Below are positions 6,253 to 16,305 of a stretch of 45,637 nt of DNA, one piece after another. Origin of the DNA: an uncultured Acetobacteraceae bacterium (GTDB lineage Bacteria; Pseudomonadota; Alphaproteobacteria; Acetobacterales; Acetobacteraceae); the NCBI GenBank assembly GCA_937873095.1, contig CALMVI010000050.1:11290-56926 (forward strand), in the 5' to 3' direction. The position numbers were made by a program, and so were the translations under genes. Under the pieces are notes generated by a model. The model was not told where the DNA came from, searched no databases, and saw only the letters and a program-made list of their open reading frames with translations. Numbering within the stretch: position 1 is the stretch's first letter; each line of letters opens with the position of its first letter.

Positions 6253-7713
6253 CTATCTGGGGGGCGCCGACAGGCGTCCTGTCCGGGCCCGGGGCAGCGT
6301 CACCGCGGGCATGCCCGCGTTCGGGCGCAGGCGCGCCAGGTAGAACCGGTACTCCTCGGCCGGCACACCGTTCCTGGCGCGGACCACACCGCCGAGCGGC
6401 CGTATGTCGGCCCACAGGCGGGGGTCCGGCCCGGCGCGCTGGCGGAGGCTGCGCACCAGCAGGACGGGCGCGTCCGACCCGGGCGGCAGGCCGAACAACG
6501 CCCAGCGCGGCTCCACCGCCATGACCGGCCCGCGCAGGCGCCAGGCGAGTTCGCTGGCCAGGCCGTACTCGTCGGCCGCAACGCCTGCAGCACCGCTGGC
6601 CATCTGCGCCGCGTAGACGCGCCCCGCCAGGTCGGACCAGCCGGCGAGCCGGATCAGGGTGAAGTCGAGCGCCCTCGGCAGCGCCCAGGGGGACGCCACG
6701 GCCTGGACGTAGAGCACCGCCGCGCACGCAAAGCCCAGCCAGACCGATGGGCGCCAGAAGCGGGCGCCGGCGCCGGCGGCGGCCAGTGCCGCACCCGGGA
6801 AGATCACCGCGGGCCAGTTCGCCTGGACCCGGTCGCCCAGCGCATGTTCGACGAACACGCAGGCCGGCAGCAGCGTCACGCAGGCCAGCAGGCCCGGCAT
6901 GGCCTGGCGGCGCCACAGCCCGGCGGCGGCGGCGGCCAGTCCTGCGCCGAATACCCAGGCGATGCCGGGCGTTGCCAGACCGACCTGGCCCGCCGCCAGC
7001 TCTGCCAGGAAGCCGAGCGCGCGGGCGGGTTGCCAGTCGCCGGTGCGCGCGCCCTGCTTGGCGAGGCTGGCCCAGCCATGCGCCGCGTTCCACCACAGCA
7101 CCGGCGCGAACAGCGCCAGCGCCAGCGCGCCGCCGGCCCAGAGCTGCCAGCGGCCCAGCCAGCGTCGCGCATCCGGCACCGCCGCCATCCAGACAAGGAT
7201 CGCGGCCCCCAGCAGCCCTGCGGTGTATTTGCTGTCCAGCGCGAAACCCGAACACAGCCCGACCCCGAGCCACCATCCCGGCCGGCCGCCGCGCACCAGC
7301 CTTGCCAGGCAGGCCAGCGCCGCGGTCCAGAAGAACAGCAGCGGCGTGTCGGGCGTCATCACCACCGAGCCGACGTTCAAGGCCAGGGTCGCGTTCAGCA
7401 GCAGCACCGCCACCGGCCCGGCACGGCGGCCGGGCGAGACGTCCTCGGCCGCCCGCATCAGCAGCAGCGAGCCCAGCAGCGCCGAGACCGGCCCCAGCAG
7501 GCGCACGCCGAGCGCGGTGTCGCCCGCGACCGCCGTGCCGGCGCGTATCCACAGCGCCACCATCGGCGGGTGGTCCAGATAGCCCCAGGCGAGCGCGCGC
7601 GACCACACCCAGTAATACGCCTCGTCGCCCGACAGCGGCGCCCGGGCCGCCACCAACAGGCGAACGCCCGCCATCGCCAGCAGGCTGAGCCGCAGCGCGG
7701 TGGAGGCGTTCAC
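6253..7713 (-). CDS. GT39-family (ArnT/PMT-like) membrane glycosyltransferase
   Basis: A polytopic inner-membrane protein of 486 residues that probably transfers a sugar from a polyprenyl-phosphate donor to a lipid or glycan. The signature is in the first periplasmic loop: SGDEAYYW (D30-E31, the acidic pair of the family) followed by YLDHPP (45-50), as in ArnT-like and Dolichyl-P-mannose-mannosyltransferase proteins. Many Ala/Leu/Trp-rich hydrophobic helices follow, with a soluble C-terminus. It lies 46 bases downstream of guaA on the same strand. The acceptor cannot be told from sequence; lipid A or a surface glycan is plausible. Confidence 0.85.
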   Translation of the reverse strand: MNASTALRLSLLAMAGVRLLVAARAPLSGDEAYYWVWSRALAWGYLDHPPMVALWIRAGTAVAGDTALGVRLLGPVSALLGSLLLMRAAEDVSPGRRAGPVAVLLLNATLALNVGSVVMTPDTPLLFFWTAALACLARLVRGGRPGWWLGVGLCSGFALDSKYTAGLLGAAILVWMAAVPDARRWLGRWQLWAGGALALALFAPVLWWNAAHGWASLAKQGARTGDWQPARALGFLAELAAGQVGLATPGIAWVFGAGLAAAAAGLWRRQAMPGLLACVTLLPACVFVEHALGDRVQANWPAVIFPGAALAAAGAGARFWRPSVWLGFACAAVLYVQAVASPWALPRALDFTLIRLAGWSDLAGRVYAAQMASGAAGVAADEYGLASELAWRLRGPVMAVEPRWALFGLPPGSDAPVLLVRSLRQRAGPDPRLWADIRPLGGVVRARNGVPAEEYRFYLARLRPNAGMPAVTLPRARTGRLSAPPR

Positions 7714-7759: not shown

Positions 7760-9316
7760 CTACTCCCACTCGATGGTTCCCGGCGGCTTGCTGGTGACGT
7801 CGTAGACCACGCGGTTGACGCCGCGGATTTCGTTGACGATGCGCGCGGCGACGCGGCCGAGGAAGGCCATGTCGAACGGGTACATGTCGGCGGTCATGCC
7901 GTCCGTGCTGGTCACCGCGCGCAGGGCGACCACCTGGTCGTAGGTGCGCTGGTCGCCCATCACCCCCACGCTGCGCACCGGCAGCAGTACGGCGAAGGCC
8001 TGCCAGATGGCGTCGTACAGCCCGGCCGACCGTATCTCCTCGAGAAAGATCGTGTCGGCCCGGCGCAGCAGGTCGAGGCCCTCACGCGTCACTTCGCCGG
8101 GGATGCGGATCGCCAGGCCAGGTCCCGGGAACGGGTGCCGGCCGACGATCGCGTCCGGCAACCCCAGCTCGCGGCCCAGCGCACGCACCTCGTCCTTGAA
8201 CAGCTCGCGCAGCGGCTCGACCAGGGTCATGCGCATCCGCTCGGGCAGGCCGCCCACGTTGTGGTGCGACTTGATGGTCACCGAAGGCCCGCCCGCGACC
8301 GAAACGCTTTCGATCACGTCCGGGTACAGAGTGCCCTGTGCAAGGAAATCCGCGCCGCCGATGCGCGCGGCCTCACCCTCGAACACGTCGATGAACAGGC
8401 GGCCGATCGTCTTGCGCTTGCTCTCCGGGTCGGTCACGCCGGCCAGCGCGCCCACGAACAGGTCGGACGCATCGCTGTGCACCAGCGGCACGTTGAAGCG
8501 GCCGCGGAAGGTTTCGACCACCTGCCCGGCCTCGCCGGCGCGCAGCAGCCCGTGGTCGACGAAGATGCAGGTCAGCCGGTCGCCCACCGCCTCGTGGATC
8601 AGCATGGCGGCCACCGAGCTGTCGACTCCGCCGGACAGGCCGCAGATCACCCGCCCCTGCCCCACCTGCGCGCGGATGCGCTCGATGGCGGCCGCACGGA
8701 ACGCCGCCATCGTCCAGTCCCCGTCGCAGCCGCACACGCGGCGCGCGAAATTGGCGAGCAGTGCGGCGCCGTGCGGGGTGTGCACCACCTCGACATGGAA
8801 CTGCGTGCCGTAGATGCGCCGGGCCTCGTCGGCGATCACCGCGAACGGCGCGCCCTCGCTGCGGGCGACGGCGGCAAAGCCCTGGGGCAGCGCGGTCACC
8901 CGGTCGCCATGGCTCATCCACACCTGCTCGCGCCCGCCCACCTGCCACACGCCGTCGAACAGCGCGCAGCCGGCGGAGACGTCGACATAGGCGCGGCCGA
9001 ACTCCTGATGGTCGTGCGCCTCCACCTGCCCGCCGAGCTGGGCCACCAGAAGCTGCTGACCGTAGCAGATGCCCAGGATCGGCAGGCCCAGCGTGTAGAT
9101 CGCCGGGTCGGCGAGCGGCGCGCCGCTCCCGGCCACGCTGGCCGGGCCGCCGGACAGGATCAGACCGCGCGGGGCGAAGGCGGCAATGCGCTCGGGCGTG
9201 GCGCTGTAGGGGAAGATTTCGCAGTACACCCCCGCCTCGCGCAGCCGGCGCGCGATCAGCTGCGTGACCTGGCTGCCGAAATCGAGGATCAGCAGGCGGC
9301 TCTGCGGTGCGTTCAT
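7760..9316 (-). CDS. guaA: GMP synthase (glutamine-hydrolysing)
   Basis: Converts XMP to GMP using glutamine and ATP, the last step of de novo GMP synthesis. The N-terminal class I amidotransferase has nucleophile C84 in GICYGQQ and H174/E176 in FHVEV. The ATP pyrophosphatase P-loop is SGGVDSS (227-233), and the C-terminal dimerisation domain ends in the family-typical [12 protein letters not shown] chose ATG 9316 ([16 protein letters not shown]), giving 518 residues, because homologues begin just before LILDFG. The frame is open to 9367 but those extra 17 residues look unlike the family. The gene is divergent from the large repetitive protein. Confidence 0.96.
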
Positions 9317-9467
9317 GCGGGCTTCCAGCACGCGGCGCGCCGTGCCGCAAGCCGGCCGGCCGCTCACGCAACAGTGTCGAAAGTTAACCGTTCCGCAACG
9401 ATTACCGATGGCACGACCGTCTCGAAAATGCGATGTTTATACATCTTTAAGCCATCGAGGGACGCTC

Positions 9468-12400
9468 ATGACCGCCATAAGCTGGAAGACCGGCCAGAGC
9501 GACCTGTGGACCGATCCTGCCGCCTGGTCCACCGGAACGATCCCCGGCAGCGCCGACGACGTGACGGTCGGGGTGGCGCCGGTCTTCGCAGGCGCCCCCT
9601 ACACCGTGACGCTGCAGACCAGCCAGTCCGCACACTCGATCACGCAAAGCCAGGCAGCGTCGACGATCGCCGTGTCGGGATGCACGCTGAGTGTCGCGGG
9701 CACATACGCGCTTGGCGGCACGGTGTCGCTCGCCCAGGCCGTTCTCGTCGGCGGCACCGTAGCGAGCACCGGCGGGACTGTGCTCCTGAACGGCAACACC
9801 GGGATCAGCGGTGTTTCGTGGCAAGGCACGCTGGACCTCGTGCGGGCGGCCGACAGCGTTTTCGACCCCACGGTGGTGCTGACCAACGACAGCTTCACAG
9901 GAGCCGGCGGCGCCGGCGCCGGCAGCATCGTGCTCGGCACCGGCGTACAGGCGCAGATCGATCCAAGCACGGTGTTGGCGGACGTGTCGTTGGTGCTGAA
10001 CAGCGCGTCGCTGTCGCAATCGAGCGGCACGCTGGCGTTCGGTTCGCTGTCGACGGTTTCCGCCTCCGGCAGTTGCTCAATCGGCTACGCCGGCGCCGCC
10101 CTGACCAATGACGGGCTGATCAGCGCGGCCGGCATCGGCACCAGCGTGGCCGTGGCGGCATCGAGCTTCTCGGGCCAGGGAACGGTGTCGGTCAGCAACG
10201 GCGCGAGCCTGTTTCTGGTGGGCGGCAACGTTTCCGACGCGGGCCTGCTCTCGGTGGGCGCCGGCAGCTACCTGGACGTCCAGAGCGCAGACGGCAGCGG
10301 CCTGTTTGCCGGCACGCAGTTCCAGGTGCAGGGCGGCACGTTGTCGCTCGACGCCAGCCTGACCACGGCGCAACTGGCCCCGCTCCACATCGCCAACGGC
10401 ACATTGGCGCTGGCCGGCACGCTGCAAAATGCGGGATACACGCTGCACCCATCCGCCGGCGCCAACCTCGCCAACCTGGATCTGGCGGGCGGCACGATCA
10501 TCGGCGGCACCATCGTCAACCAGGGCGCCTTCACGGTCGACGCCATTGCGCCGCAAGACGCGTACTCGCTGACCGGAACAAGCCAGATGACGCGTGTCAC
10601 CTTCGAGGGGACGCTGGACGTGGGCGCTTCCGCACAGCTCGACCTCAGCGGCTTCACCCTGACGGGCATGGGCGGCAGCGGACAGGGCAGCATCGTCATC
10701 GCCACCAGCGGGCTGGTCGACGTGCTCGACAACGAGACGCTGAACGCCTCCATCAGCATCGGCACCGACGGCCTTATCAGCTACGTCGCCAACGGCCTGT
10801 ATGCGGCGGGAACGCTGACCCTGGGCGCACAGAACGTGACAACGGTGGCGGAGACGAACGCCACCATCGCCGGCAGCGGCCAGAGCGGGCTGGTGATCAA
10901 TGCCGGCACCATCGACCTGACGTCCAAGGCCGCATCGCTCAGCCTCTACAACGTGGTCAATAACGGCCAGATCAGCGTCGCGGCTGGCGAGGTGTCGGCG
11001 CAGAACATGACCAATGACGGCACGATCACCGTCACCTCCGGAGCCCTCGGCGAGACTGGGCCGTTCCTGAACGCCGGGCTGATCTCCATCAGCGGAACCG
11101 GTTCCACCGACAACAGCACGGGCTACACGAGCGGACTGGCCAATGCCGGCACGTTCAGCGTGTCGAACGGCGCGACGGCGTATCTCGGCACGTACGGAAC
11201 GGGTTGGACCAACTCCGGCACGTTCCTCGTCGCCAACGCCAACCTGTTCCTGGCCGGCATCTTCACGACCGGGCAGCTTGGCACCCTGCAAGCCGGGCAG
11301 GCCGGAACGCTGAGCCTGCTCGGCACCCTGCAGAACACAGGCACGTTCAGCGTCGGCCAGGGCACCAGCGTGTCGGCCCTGGCCCTCGACGGCGGCATTA
11401 AAGGCGGAACGCTCATCGACACCGGCGGCGGGCTGATCGGTGGAGGCGGCGTGCTGTCGGACGTGGCGTTCGACGGCACCTTGGCGCTGACACAGGACCA
11501 ATCCGACCTATACATCGACAGCGGCACGCGTTTTTCGCAAGCCTCGGGTGGCGCCGGCAGCATCCTGATCACCGGTTCGGCAAGCAGCCTTGCGGCCGAC
11601 GGCAACACCACGCTGGACGACGTCGCCATATCGCTCGGCAGCAGCGGCGGTACTGCGGCAACGCTGGGGGCGACGTACGGGGAGACGCTGACGCTCGGCG
11701 CCAGCTCCATCGTGACGCAGACCGGCGCACTCGCCGGCCTCGGCGTGCCTTTCGGCTCCATGGGGACCGTCCTCAACCAGGGGCTCGTGATCGCCGACCA
11801 GGCGGGCGGCACGCTGTCGCTGACCGGTTCGATCACCAATGCGGGCACGGTGGCCGTGGGCAACGGCGACACGCTTCTGCTGTCGGCCGATTCGCTGGTC
11901 AATACCGGCGTGATCAGCGTGACGAACGCCGCGGTCGACCTGCAAAACGCGAGCCTCGCGCAGCTGTCCGAGCTGACGCTCGTCGACAGCGCGGTTGCGG
12001 TGACGGGCCAACTGAACGCGCTCGGCGGCACGCTGTCGGTCGGCGCGGGGGGTCTCGTGCCGCTGCTGCAGGTGGAGGGGACCATATCCGGCGGCACGAT
12101 CCACGATGCGGGCGGCGGCGTGCAGTTCGCCGGCGCGGCAGCGCTGAACGGGGTGACCTATCAGGGCGTGATGACGGTGAACCGGCCGCTCAGCACCGTC
12201 ACCGTGACTGGCGGCCTGACCCTGCAGGGGTTGCAGGGCAGCGGCGCCGGCAGCCTGGCGCTGACCGGCGCGGGCAGCACGCTGGTGTGGGACAGCACCC
12301 AGGCGCTGGACAACGCCACGCTCAGCATCGGCAGCAACGCCACGTCCTATGCCGGGCACGCGCTCGAGGCACCCAGCCTGGTCGCTGATCAATCGCCGGT

Positions 12401-13361
12401 GCAGACCGTGACGGAGGTCCTGCTCGGCAGCCACCTGCACGTGATACAGGCTGGGCTGTACGCCGAGATCGGGTCGGCCTACGGCACGTTCTCCAGTGCG
12501 GCCACGATGACGGCCAATCTGGCGCACGGGCAGCTCGTGCTGCAGGGGCAGAGTTTCACCAACACCGGCACCATCGGCGTCAGCGCGACCGACACCGTGC
12601 AGTTGGAATCAGAGGGTTTCACCAATGCCAGGCTGATGGTGGTCGGGGTGGGAAGCACCGTCGACCTCGACCTCTACAATTACTTCGCCGAGGGCAGCCT
12701 GGCCGCTCAGAGCTTCACCAACACCGGCACGATGATGATGGCGGGCGGCATGCTGGCCGAGCAGACCGGCAACGGCGCGTTCCCGAAAGTGCCGCTGCTG
12801 AACGCGCATGGCGGGCACATCGTGGGCGCCGGCGTGGTGGCGAGCCAGATCGACAATGACGGCGTCATCGAGGCGCATCAGGGCGTGCTCGACATGCTGC
12901 AGGTGATCTCCGGCACCGGCGCGCTGCAGGTGGATGGCGGCGCGATGCTGGTGCTGGGCGGGGTGGGCACCGGACAGACGGTCAGCTTCGCGGGTGCGGG
13001 GGGCGTGCTCGGGCTGCTGCCGCCCTACTTCCTCGGCACCATCGGCGGCTTCGCCTCCGGCGACACGATCGACGTGCTCAACACCAGCGCCCGCTCGGCC
13101 GCGTTCTCCGGCGACAGCATCGTCGTCTCGCTCAGCAACGGCGGCACGCTGCGGCTGGCCACCACCTCCGCGCTGAGTGGCTCGCTGACGGTGACGGCGG
13201 GCACGCATGGCGACGAGCTGATCCGGTTTGCCGCCGGCGCCGGGTCCCCCGCGCCGCACGCCGCGGCGCCGGGCGCTGCGGACGTGTTTGCCCGGCAGGC
13301 GGAGCCGCTGGCGCCGATCGGTTACGGGCTGGGCGCGGTGCATTTTGGTCATGTGGTGTAA
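9468..13361 (+). CDS. Giant repetitive beta-strand surface protein
   Basis: A 1,297-residue protein rich in Gly, Ser, Thr, Ala and Val. It is built from about sixteen units of the form [FLIV]-x-N-x-G-[TVLAI]-[IVF]-x-V, for example MTNDGTITVTSG, LANAGTFSVSNG and FTNTGTIGVSATD. This pattern is typical of right-handed beta-helix adhesins. The N-terminus (SWKTGQSDLWTDPAAWSTG, then IPGSADDVTVG) and the C-terminal GGFASGDTIDVLNTSA both resemble large repeat proteins of Acetobacteraceae. The ATG at 9468 has a GAGGGAC ribosome site; reading further upstream would run into guaA. I see no Sec signal peptide, no autotransporter barrel and no clear RTX nonapeptides. No secretion gene is adjacent, so the export route is unknown. 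Confidence 0.8.
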   Translation: MTAISWKTGQSDLWTDPAAWSTGTIPGSADDVTVGVAPVFAGAPYTVTLQTSQSAHSITQSQAASTIAVSGCTLSVAGTYALGGTVSLAQAVLVGGTVASTGGTVLLNGNTGISGVSWQGTLDLVRAADSVFDPTVVLTNDSFTGAGGAGAGSIVLGTGVQAQIDPSTVLADVSLVLNSASLSQSSGTLAFGSLSTVSASGSCSIGYAGAALTNDGLISAAGIGTSVAVAASSFSGQGTVSVSNGASLFLVGGNVSDAGLLSVGAGSYLDVQSADGSGLFAGTQFQVQGGTLSLDASLTTAQLAPLHIANGTLALAGTLQNAGYTLHPSAGANLANLDLAGGTIIGGTIVNQGAFTVDAIAPQDAYSLTGTSQMTRVTFEGTLDVGASAQLDLSGFTLTGMGGSGQGSIVIATSGLVDVLDNETLNASISIGTDGLISYVANGLYAAGTLTLGAQNVTTVAETNATIAGSGQSGLVINAGTIDLTSKAASLSLYNVVNNGQISVAAGEVSAQNMTNDGTITVTSGALGETGPFLNAGLISISGTGSTDNSTGYTSGLANAGTFSVSNGATAYLGTYGTGWTNSGTFLVANANLFLAGIFTTGQLGTLQAGQAGTLSLLGTLQNTGTFSVGQGTSVSALALDGGIKGGTLIDTGGGLIGGGGVLSDVAFDGTLALTQDQSDLYIDSGTRFSQASGGAGSILITGSASSLAADGNTTLDDVAISLGSSGGTAATLGATYGETLTLGASSIVTQTGALAGLGVPFGSMGTVLNQGLVIADQAGGTLSLTGSITNAGTVAVGNGDTLLLSADSLVNTGVISVTNAAVDLQNASLAQLSELTLVDSAVAVTGQLNALGGTLSVGAGGLVPLLQVEGTISGGTIHDAGGGVQFAGAAALNGVTYQGVMTVNRPLSTVTVTGGLTLQGLQGSGAGSLALTGAGSTLVWDSTQALDNATLSIGSNATSYAGHALEAPSLVADQSPVQTVTEVLLGSHLHVIQAGLYAEIGSAYGTFSSAATMTANLAHGQLVLQGQSFTNTGTIGVSATDTVQLESEGFTNARLMVVGVGSTVDLDLYNYFAEGSLAAQSFTNTGTMMMAGGMLAEQTGNGAFPKVPLLNAHGGHIVGAGVVASQIDNDGVIEAHQGVLDMLQVISGTGALQVDGGAMLVLGGVGTGQTVSFAGAGGVLGLLPPYFLGTIGGFASGDTIDVLNTSARSAAFSGDSIVVSLSNGGTLRLATTSALSGSLTVTAGTHGDELIRFAAGAGSPAPHAAAPGAADVFARQAEPLAPIGYGLGAVHFGHVV

Positions 13362-13516: not shown

Positions 13517-14329
13517 TCAGCAACGAACGCCTAGCTCTTCCGCCAGCCGCGCCGCCGCCGTCTGCACGTAGGCCGCGTCCAGCTCGATCCCGATCCCCCT
13601 CGCCCCTTCCAGCGCCGCCGCGACCAGGGTGGTGCCGGTGCCGGCGAACGGGTCCAGGACCAGGGCGTCCTGGCGGTTGTGCAGGCGTATGCACCAGCGC
13701 GGCAGGTCGAGCGGAAACGTGCCGGGGTGGTGGTATTTCTGCGACCGGCTCTGCACCGTGCGGTAGGGGATGAACCAAGTGTTGCCGCGGCAGCGTGCGT
13801 CCTGGGCGTGGCCGCGCCTGGCGATGTTGGACTTGTCCTTGAACGGCACGCCGATCGCCAGACGGTCCAGCTGCACGTCGCCGGTCAGCGTCAGGTGGAA
13901 CACGTGCTCGTGGTTGTGGTTCAGGAAGCGCCGGCCGGCGACCGGCTTGAAATGGCCCACCGTGTCGTCGCCGGTGCTGACCGACTTGATCCAGGTGATG
14001 TGGTTCTGCAGCACGAAGAGCGGCCGCAGCCGGACGATCAGCTCGAAGGGCAGCCAGGGCCGTGCGTTGGAGCCGGCGATGTTGAGGAAAAACGACGCGT
14101 CCGGCCGCATCACCCGGCGCACCGCACCCGCCACCTGGACCATCCAGGCCAGGTAGTCGGCCTCGCTCCTGGCGTCGTCATAGGCATTGTAGGCGAGATC
14201 CAGGTTGTAGGGCGGCGAGGTCACGACGACGTCGACCGACCCGGCGGCCAGGGTGGGCAGCACGGCCAGGCAGTCGCCGTGGTGGATCGTGTGCGGCCCG
14301 AGCAGGACAGGGGCACAGGCCGGCGTCAG
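13517..14329 (-). CDS. Orphan beta-class DNA methyltransferase, start in doubt
   Basis: An S-adenosylmethionine-dependent DNA methyltransferase. Catalytic motif IV TSPPY (about 37-41) precedes the target-recognition region and SAM-binding motif I DPFAGTGTT (about 226-234), the permuted order of the beta class (CcrM-like). SPPY is frequent in N4-cytosine enzymes but also occurs in N6-adenine ones. No restriction nuclease is nearby. The start is abnormal: no in-frame ATG, GTG or TTG precedes HTIHHGDCLAVLP. I give CTG at 14329 (GGAGGGGG just upstream) as a placeholder, about 270 residues. An ATG overlapping the mltA stop at 14346 is out of frame by one base. One extra G in the G5 tract (14334-14338) would join it to the gene. 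Confidence 0.8.
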   Translation of the reverse strand: MTPACAPVLLGPHTIHHGDCLAVLPTLAAGSVDVVVTSPPYNLDLAYNAYDDARSEADYLAWMVQVAGAVRRVMRPDASFFLNIAGSNARPWLPFELIVRLRPLFVLQNHITWIKSVSTGDDTVGHFKPVAGRRFLNHNHEHVFHLTLTGDVQLDRLAIGVPFKDKSNIARRGHAQDARCRGNTWFIPYRTVQSRSQKYHHPGTFPLDLPRWCIRLHNRQDALVLDPFAGTGTTLVAAALEGARGIGIELDAAYVQTAAARLAEELGVRC

Positions 14330-14345
14330 AAAGCCCCCTCCAGCA

Positions 14346-15494
14346 TCAGAGGGCGGGGCGCGGCAGCAGGATGTACTCCGTGCCGCCCTGGTGCATGCGG
14401 GCGGCGCGCTGCTCGGCGGCGCGGCCGGCGCCCAGGAACACGTCGGCGCGCGCGGGACCCACGATGTCGCTGCCGAGATCCTGGGCCAGCAGCAGCCTGC
14501 GCCAGGGCGCGCCGTCCACCGGGTCGGTGGTGTCGAGGAACAGCGGCACGCCCAGCGGCAGCGCCAGCCGGTCGATGGCGGCCGCCCGGCCGGGGACCAG
14601 GTCCACGCCGAGCGCGCCGGGCGGCCCGTCGCCGGCATCGGCGCCCAGCACCACGCGGAAGAAGACGTAGTCGTCGTTGCGGTCCATCACCGCGCGGGCC
14701 TGGTCCGGGTGCGCGGCCAGCCAGGCGCGGACCGATTGCAGGCTGACCGCGTTTTCCGCCAGCGCGCCCTGCTGCACGAGCACGCGGCCGAGCGGGGTGT
14801 AGGGCCGGCCGTTCTTGCCGTCATAGGCGACGCGCACCACCGTGCCGTCGGCCAGCCTGACGCGGCCGGCACCCTGCACCTGCAGCAGGAACAGATCGGC
14901 CGGGTCCTGCAGCCACAGCAGCGGCCGCGCCGCGTAGCCTGCCCGGCCCGCCTCCAGCTCCTGCCGCGTCCAGTAGGGAACCAGGCGCCCGTCCTGCAGC
15001 CGCCCGACCGGGGCAGCCGCGCCGGGCGAGGACGGCCGCGCCTGCACCAGGTCGCGCGGCCTGGCCAGGATGGGCACGGCGTAGGCGCCGCCTGGGGCCA
15101 GCGCGCCCGGCACTTCGGGCTCGTAATAGCCGGTCACCAGCGCGGGCGCGTCGATCCGGTAGGGCTGGAACCAGGCCTCGTAGAAGCGGCGCGCGCCGGC
15201 CGCGTCGCCGGGCGCGAGCGAAAGGGCGGCCGCACAGGACGGCGTCCACTGGCCTGCGCGGCCGGCAGCCTGGGCGGCCGCCCCGCTGCTGCCCAGCCAA
15301 GTGTCCGCCGGCAGCAGCGCGAACCGGCGGCACTCGGCTTTCAGGGCAGGCAGCGTGTCGGCCAGGGTGTCGGCCGACCAGCCCGGGATCGCGTCGAACC
15401 GGGTCGCACGCAGCGCACCGTCCTGCGGCGCGGGCGTGCAGCCCGCGAGCCAAGCTGACGCAGCCGCCGCGAGAGACCGGCGCCGGAACCGCAT
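14346..15494 (-). CDS. mltA: Membrane-bound lytic murein transglycosylase A
   Basis: Outer-membrane lipoprotein that cleaves peptidoglycan glycan strands, forming 1,6-anhydro ends. It begins with a basic region and hydrophobic stretch ending in lipobox LAGC (residues 16-19). It contains the MltA domain (VTGYYEPE, YWTRQELEAG, FLLQVQGAGRVRLADG) and the C-terminal 3D domain (AQDLGSDIVGPARADVFLG) that holds the catalytic aspartate of the family. Length from ATG 15494 is 382 residues; GTG at 15500 is an alternative. The frame stays open far upstream to 16460, but that part is only a shadow of the Tim44-like gene. It follows that gene by 14 bases. Confidence 0.92.
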   Translation of the reverse strand: MRFRRRSLAAAASAWLAGCTPAPQDGALRATRFDAIPGWSADTLADTLPALKAECRRFALLPADTWLGSSGAAAQAAGRAGQWTPSCAAALSLAPGDAAGARRFYEAWFQPYRIDAPALVTGYYEPEVPGALAPGGAYAVPILARPRDLVQARPSSPGAAAPVGRLQDGRLVPYWTRQELEAGRAGYAARPLLWLQDPADLFLLQVQGAGRVRLADGTVVRVAYDGKNGRPYTPLGRVLVQQGALAENAVSLQSVRAWLAAHPDQARAVMDRNDDYVFFRVVLGADAGDGPPGALGVDLVPGRAAAIDRLALPLGVPLFLDTTDPVDGAPWRRLLLAQDLGSDIVGPARADVFLGAGRAAEQRAARMHQGGTEYILLPRPAL

Positions 15495-15508: not shown

Positions 15509-16168
15509 CTATGCGCTGCGCGCCGCCGTCAGCCGCCAGGTCAGGTCGGTTCCCGCGAGGTCGCGCTCGAAGGCCCACAGGTCGGAAATCTCGGTCACCG
15601 CGTCCGTGCCGCTGATCGGCTGGCCGGCCTTGTCGGAGGAGATGTTCACCTGGCGCGAGACGAACCGCACGGTGATTGCCGCCTGGGTGCCGGACAGCGA
15701 GGCATCGGTCACGCTCACCTCGTCGATGCCGCGTATCTCGGTGCGCTGGGTCTCGCCCGCCGCCTCCCTTGCAGCGATCACGCTGTCGAAGGCCTGGTAG
15801 GTGGCGTCCCCCAGAAGGGGCCGCAGCCTGGCCCGGTCGCCGGCGGCGAACGCATCGACGATCATCCTGAAGGCGTGCTCGGCGCCGGCGAGGAACTGCG
15901 CCGGCTCGAACCGCCGGTCGATGCCGCGCATGGCGGCCATCGTCCGCCCGACCGGCCCCGACGGGTCTGGCAGCTTGCGGGCGGCGCCGGCCGGGTCGGC
16001 CTTGGCGTCGGCGATGCCGGACGCGGGCTGCGGCACGCGGACGGGGGCGGCCGGCGCGCCCTCGAACCCGGTGCGCTTGCCCAGGATGCTGCGCAGACGC
16101 AGCACGAGGAACGCCGCGATCATCGCGAACAGGACCAGATCGATCGGAAAACCACCTGCCGCTTGCAC
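15509..16168 (-). CDS. Tim44-like domain membrane protein
   Basis: An inner-membrane protein with one N-terminal transmembrane helix (FPIDLVLFAMIAAFLVLRLR) and a C-terminal Tim44-like domain with the typical 'AEHAFRMIVDAFAAGDRARL' core and 'DLWAFERDL' end. Bacterial homologues (TimA in Caulobacter) lie beside mltA and opposite secB, as here. The role is not well established. I chose GTG 16168, which has a GGGAGAG ribosome site 5 bases upstream and gives 219 residues starting just before the helix. GTG 16195 would add nine residues. It is the first gene of the tim44-like/mltA/methyltransferase run. Confidence 0.85.
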   Translation of the reverse strand: MQAAGGFPIDLVLFAMIAAFLVLRLRSILGKRTGFEGAPAAPVRVPQPASGIADAKADPAGAARKLPDPSGPVGRTMAAMRGIDRRFEPAQFLAGAEHAFRMIVDAFAAGDRARLRPLLGDATYQAFDSVIAAREAAGETQRTEIRGIDEVSVTDASLSGTQAAITVRFVSRQVNISSDKAGQPISGTDAVTEISDLWAFERDLAGTDLTWRLTAARSA

Positions 16169-16305
16169 TCGACTCTCCCGGACACTGGCTTTCACATAGG
16201 GACTGTCCGGCCCGCGGCAAACAGCGGCGAGACGCCCGGGCGTCAGACGCGCGGCACCGCACCCGCTCGTTGCTCTTCGTCACAGGCGGGGCTAGCTCTC
16301 CGCGC

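Follow-up and report, generated by a model that had tools for sequence, protein, structure and literature searches.

The 45,637-nucleotide stretch of DNA analysed here (the window; contig CALMVI010000050.1 of an uncultured Acetobacteraceae bacterium) encodes, on its minus strand and directly downstream of mltA, a beta-class DNA methyltransferase with no ATG, GTG or TTG close to its beginning. If the assembled sequence is right, the methyltransferase is most likely translated weakly from a CTG at 14329, a reading to which we give a rough probability of 0.45. Weak initiation at this codon and the loss of one base, real or artefactual, are nearly balanced, with rough odds near even. The Shine-Dalgarno (SD)-like sequence before the CTG, a parallel in a homologous locus, the little-decayed enzyme and the low rate of flagged frame breaks in the genome favour the CTG, and the statistics of TGATG junctions favour a one-base loss. 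The weights given to the various readings are judgements, not computed posteriors. The junction comprises the following elements:

13517..14329, minus strand: beta-class N6/N4 DNA methyltransferase frame, 270 codons plus stop when counted from the CTG at 14329
14327..14329, minus strand: CTG, the best near-cognate start candidate, overlapping the stop of the six-codon frame (CTGA)
14337..14341, minus strand: GGAGG, SD-like, 7 nucleotides before the CTG
14334..14338, minus strand: G5 tract
14326..14346, minus strand: six-codon open reading frame that begins with the ATG in TGATG and ends at TGA
14346-14344, minus strand: ATG overlapping the mltA stop (TGATG)
14348-14346, minus strand: TGA, stop codon of mltA
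14636..14638, minus strand: in-frame ATG inside mltA, the sole canonical in-frame start upstream of the conserved N-terminus

The six-codon frame reads ATG CTG GAG GGG GCT TTC TGA, with its stop at 14328-14326, and the frame of its ATG (14346) is one base out of register with that of the methyltransferase. The positions at which an earlier sequence-only reading had placed the TGATG, the G5 tract and the CTG are all borne out, as is its statement that the ATG frame closes after six codons. The same reading had held that no in-frame ATG, GTG or TTG precedes the conserved N-terminus. This is true locally, but the methyltransferase frame is free of stops from 14686 down to its own stop at 13517 and contains the ATG at 14638. 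Translation from that ATG through the open frame would give a 373-residue protein, a reading to which we attach next to no weight: the extra 103 residues are mltA read out of frame, and the codon lies 120 codons from the GDC motif of the enzyme, whereas candidate starts of homologues mostly lie no more than 45 codons from it. A search for repeats around the junction found nothing relevant.

The CTG at 14329 is the one near-cognate codon, of those listed for the stretch, with a GGAGG 5-9 nucleotides upstream, an arrangement found at 74 of 13241 random CTGs (0.56%) in the genome sample. The sequence therefore holds what a CTG start would call for, namely no canonical local start together with a CTG that has an SD at normal spacing, and a codon-usage model places the beginning of coding at approximately 14310. 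Initiation has reportedly been seen from all 64 codons (Hecht et al.). Ribosomes finishing mltA on the same message would help initiation at this CTG, as would the GGAGG upstream of it, and a start anywhere in the variable stretch before the GDC motif would probably yield a working enzyme, because this stretch varies freely among homologues. We infer co-transcription with mltA, use of the CTG and low expression. In a more elaborate version, which we regard as improbable, the six-codon frame would be a tiny coupling cistron: ribosomes coming off mltA would begin again at TGATG, translate six codons as far as the TGA that overlaps the CTG, and initiate once more at this CTG behind the GGAGG, so that the methyltransferase would be kept at a very low, mltA-linked level.

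The comparison of homologous junctions drew on 187 loci, including a few unrelated stretches of the window's own genome; 136 of these contain a homologue and a distinct junction sequence, and in 108 of the 136, the window included, mltA was detected no more than 600 nucleotides upstream. Junction counts refer to these 108 loci, and the start counted is the first in-frame canonical codon from 30 nucleotides before the mltA stop, with in-frame stops respected. This first candidate codon is ATG in 84 loci, GTG in 16 and TTG in five, and it is absent from three: the window and two loci that we call L015 and L043. The lack of a local canonical start is therefore unusual in the family (3/108). Counted among the 105 are L008, in which an NN gap occupies the start region, and L103, which has a broken frame. 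In 24 of the 28 loci without a detected mltA, a canonical codon lies 4 to 45 codons ahead of the GDC motif; in three (L144, L146 and L148) an ATG lies 61 codons ahead of it, and the last (L070) is truncated by a contig end.

The positions of the candidate starts shift between homologues. Many overlap the end of mltA and several stand just five codons before the GDC motif, which makes the stretch ahead of this motif look dispensable. A normal in-frame start in homologues at the same place had been named as an observation that would refute the earlier reading, and it is found only in a loose sense: a canonical codon is nearby in 105 of the 108 loci, but its position differs by locus, so the homologues do not show what the species of the window should have. 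In the nearest congener (genome G002, whose locus is also that of L008 and L027) the start falls in an NN scaffold gap, neither mltA nor the methyltransferase was matched in the other congener (G001, 85% complete), and no second genome of the species was found.

The two other loci without a local canonical start differ from each other. L043 (G077; CAMFLK010000108.1) belongs to a different genus, represented by one genome, and its mltA stop is overlapped by a CTG (CTGA), the corresponding sequence in several relatives being GTGA; it has no GGAGG. With its CTGA and its missing canonical start, L043 is a partial parallel to the CTG reading of the window. In L015 (G012) mltA ends in CTAG, no ATG, GTG or TTG precedes the conserved N-terminus, no CTG stands at the stop, and the only CTGs are two and three codons before the GDC motif. 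The genus of L015 has two genomes; in the second (L058) the mltA stop reads CTGA and is followed two codons on by a GTG.

The methyltransferase frame itself is intact and ordinary, and is linked to mltA. Its 270 codons contain no stop. Of 96 near-invariant columns, defined by conservation of at least 97% among 86 other sequences with five divergent rows excluded, it keeps 95. The end branch of the window enzyme is 0.2, against a median of 0.2. Judged by these comparisons the enzyme shows little decay, and a long-dead gene is unlikely.

Several observations weigh against initiation at the CTG. A GGAGG stands 5-9 nucleotides before only 4 of 202 assigned starts (2%) in the window's own genome and, with several near-cognate codons available, an SD could arise by chance; together these make the GGAGG weak support for the CTG. 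CUG is rare in reconstructions of start-codon changes, with 2 of 61,358 changes from AUG (PMC5622118). L015 lacks even an SD-placed CTG, so some gaps in the family may have another cause. One near-invariant residue of the enzyme is lost, when 65 of 87 rows lose none and the worst loses four. Last, a TGATG is usually a real start: among the 21 of the 108 loci that have one at the mltA stop, 19 read on from it in frame and without a stop into the methyltransferase, and of the 13 other TGATG junctions in the own genome, 11 share the frame of the following gene.

The family count lends support to the idea, raised by the sequence-only reading, that the TGATG is the intended start, and on this comparison it is probably a former or true start that is now out of register. 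The TGATG is out of frame in two loci, the window and L103 (Asaia astilbis JCM 15831); in the latter, at approximately 1958-2025, the N-terminal coding stretch is one C shorter than in other Asaia. It is conceivable, though we rate it well below the CTG, that the ATG of TGATG was the start, that one base between this ATG and 14326 was really and recently lost, and that the methyltransferase is off or barely made. Both sets of TGATG counts speak for such a loss, as does the missing C of L103. Against it, several of the 19 in-frame loci are close relatives, such as Asaia, and so do not count independently, and a TGATG is expected often by chance: in the 273.5 kb sampled from the own genome, where 14 of 133 TGA-ending genes have one, TGATG follows 623 of 5210 TGA triplets (12%). 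With so little decay of the enzyme and an end branch not above the median, any real loss would have to be recent.

The same TGATG statistics would equally suit an assembled sequence that is wrong by one base, in which case the gene would have an ordinary ATG start coupled to mltA via TGATG. Homopolymers are where sequence-length errors tend to fall; one is present at the site, and the own genome is a 162-contig draft. We consider an error somewhat less likely again than a real loss. A frame scan of the genome sample, which flagged few breaks, speaks against an error. This home-made scan, with a model trained on four genes of the window, took in 222 coding segments and tested 108 boundaries between close genes on the same strand. 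A boundary was flagged if no canonical codon lay within a set distance inside the predicted coding start. The number of flags fell from 39 at 0 nucleotides to 10 at 15, five at 30 (the setting reported) and two at 45, a setting that misses the window's own case. Of the five flags at 30 nucleotides, one is the junction of the window; the others, judged by eye, are a transposase (L200), a boundary that stayed unexplained (L202) and two with ordinary readings. One of the ordinary two is a gene with a GTG missed at 7713, the frame from which matches PMT_2, and the other is a low-complexity gap inside one frame at approximately 2900 of the window. Indel errors in the own genome therefore look rare, to the extent that a rough method with rough start calls can indicate.

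Two of the flagged sites have features of their own. In L200 (own contig C11, approximately 2128) a transposase-like reading, recognised by eye, is broken at an A5G6 run, an interruption that resembles the programmed frameshift of some insertion sequence elements. In L202 (own contig C13, approximately 868-1101), next to a long C run close to the end of the contig, the coding signal shifts to another frame and no canonical start accompanies the shift.

The sequence-only reading had offered an error, an inactivated gene, a CTG start and slippage-based switching as explanations. The CTG start and a one-base loss survive close to balance, and on/off switching is not supported. A change of one base in the length of the G tract would indeed fuse the ATG to the gene, but the 273.5-kb sample has 271 runs of exactly five G or C, about one per kb, so that a G5 tract at the junction is not notable by chance; longer runs number five of length seven, none of length eight and two of length nine. 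Tracts reported to vary are mostly longer: those that do so in Neisseria are mainly of length eight or more, with one variable C5/C6 tract mentioned (PMC5084427), and the strong candidates in Helicobacter canadensis carried frameshifts or had tracts longer than nine (PMC2823697). The Neisseria C5/C6 tract makes switching at a G5 tract unlikely rather than impossible, and we give a phase-variation switch scarcely any weight. The long simple repeat that a phase-variable methyltransferase would have at its gene start is lacking, the tract here being G5 only.

A programmed -1 frameshift, in which ribosomes would start at the ATG and slip back by one base on the G run, is very improbable. The ATG, the G run and the target frame have the right geometry for it, but no X XXY YYZ heptamer was seen by eye in the upstream frame, the predicted RNA structure is not stronger than that of shuffled sequences (z 0.12), and homologues have their candidate starts elsewhere.

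Should the sequence be right, production of a conserved methyltransferase would depend on a very weak start, the sort that gene callers would be prone to miss or misplace, and L015 and L043 show a similar gap. If the sequence is one base short, the locus would be a caution against taking a missing start for biology. A genome-wide methylation switch is indicated in neither case.

The assignment of the enzyme rests on its match to PF01555 (E 5.8e-42; 144.6 bits against a curated cut-off of 26.7), and its best PADLOC label is type II methyltransferase (MTase_II, E 1.3e-71). The order of motif IV before motif I defines the beta class, and in the window enzyme SPPY (motif IV) precedes DPFAGTGTT (motif I, FxGxG). 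The two motifs and the upstream genes are placed as follows, the mltA start (ATG at 15494) having been assigned by eye:

14207..14218, minus strand: catalytic motif IV, SPPY, residues 38-41, present in 92/92 aligned sequences, window included
13628..13654, minus strand: S-adenosylmethionine-binding motif I, DPFAGTGTT, residues 226-234, with DPFxG[TS]GTT in 67/92 sequences, window included
14346..15494, minus strand: mltA, lytic transglycosylase directly upstream of the methyltransferase and ending in TGATG (PF03562, E 1.3e-53; PF06725, 3D domain)
15509..16195, minus strand: Tim44-domain gene upstream of mltA (PF04280, E 8.7e-41)

Eight neighbouring genes (MltA, Tim44, histidine phosphatase, SecB, a 1299-residue protein without a match, GMP synthase, PMT_2 and AIR synthase) were searched in Pfam, and five of them also in PADLOC, where none matched; no restriction enzyme is among them, so that, judged from these neighbours, the methyltransferase is an orphan. 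Convergent with it on the plus strand, 9264-13361 encodes a large repetitive Gly/Ser/Thr-rich protein of about 1300 residues with no match in Pfam or PADLOC. Elsewhere in the own genome there are six further PF01555 stretches, three of them on one contig (G000:C46:2851-4394), where they lie within 1.6 kb, one with an internal TGA, and are perhaps broken or repeated methyltransferase genes.

Among solved structures, the best matches of the window enzyme are 2zie, the N4-cytosine enzymes 8s9m and 8s9n, and PvuII (1boo), with E values from 7e-19 to 8e-15; they have the SPPY motif in common with it and are distantly related. The adenine enzymes CcrM (6pbd) and MboIIA (1g60) match nearly as well as the N4-cytosine structures, so that these matches do not single out the modified base. 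CcrM (NCBIfam NF050803) and YhdJ (PRK11524; NCBIfam NF008572) are detectable relatives, but membership of either family was rejected, with 63.7 bits against the equivalog cut-off of 830 for the former and 84.5 against 292 for the latter. Phasevarion methyltransferases likewise have a methyltransferase frame near a homopolymer, from which the window differs in having a G5 tract only. The closest comparison is with the mltA-linked methyltransferases (PF01555) of Acetobacteraceae, among them Gluconobacter, Asaia, Limobrevibacterium and many metagenome-assembled genomes, which are the same enzyme with up to 79% identity; a homologue at E 1e-90 is present in 168 of 397 family genomes, the own genome included. 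We found no family name for these enzymes, and a literature search, judged by titles only, showed no title on them among those listed. Unlike 105 of the 108 mltA-linked loci, the window locus has no canonical local start.
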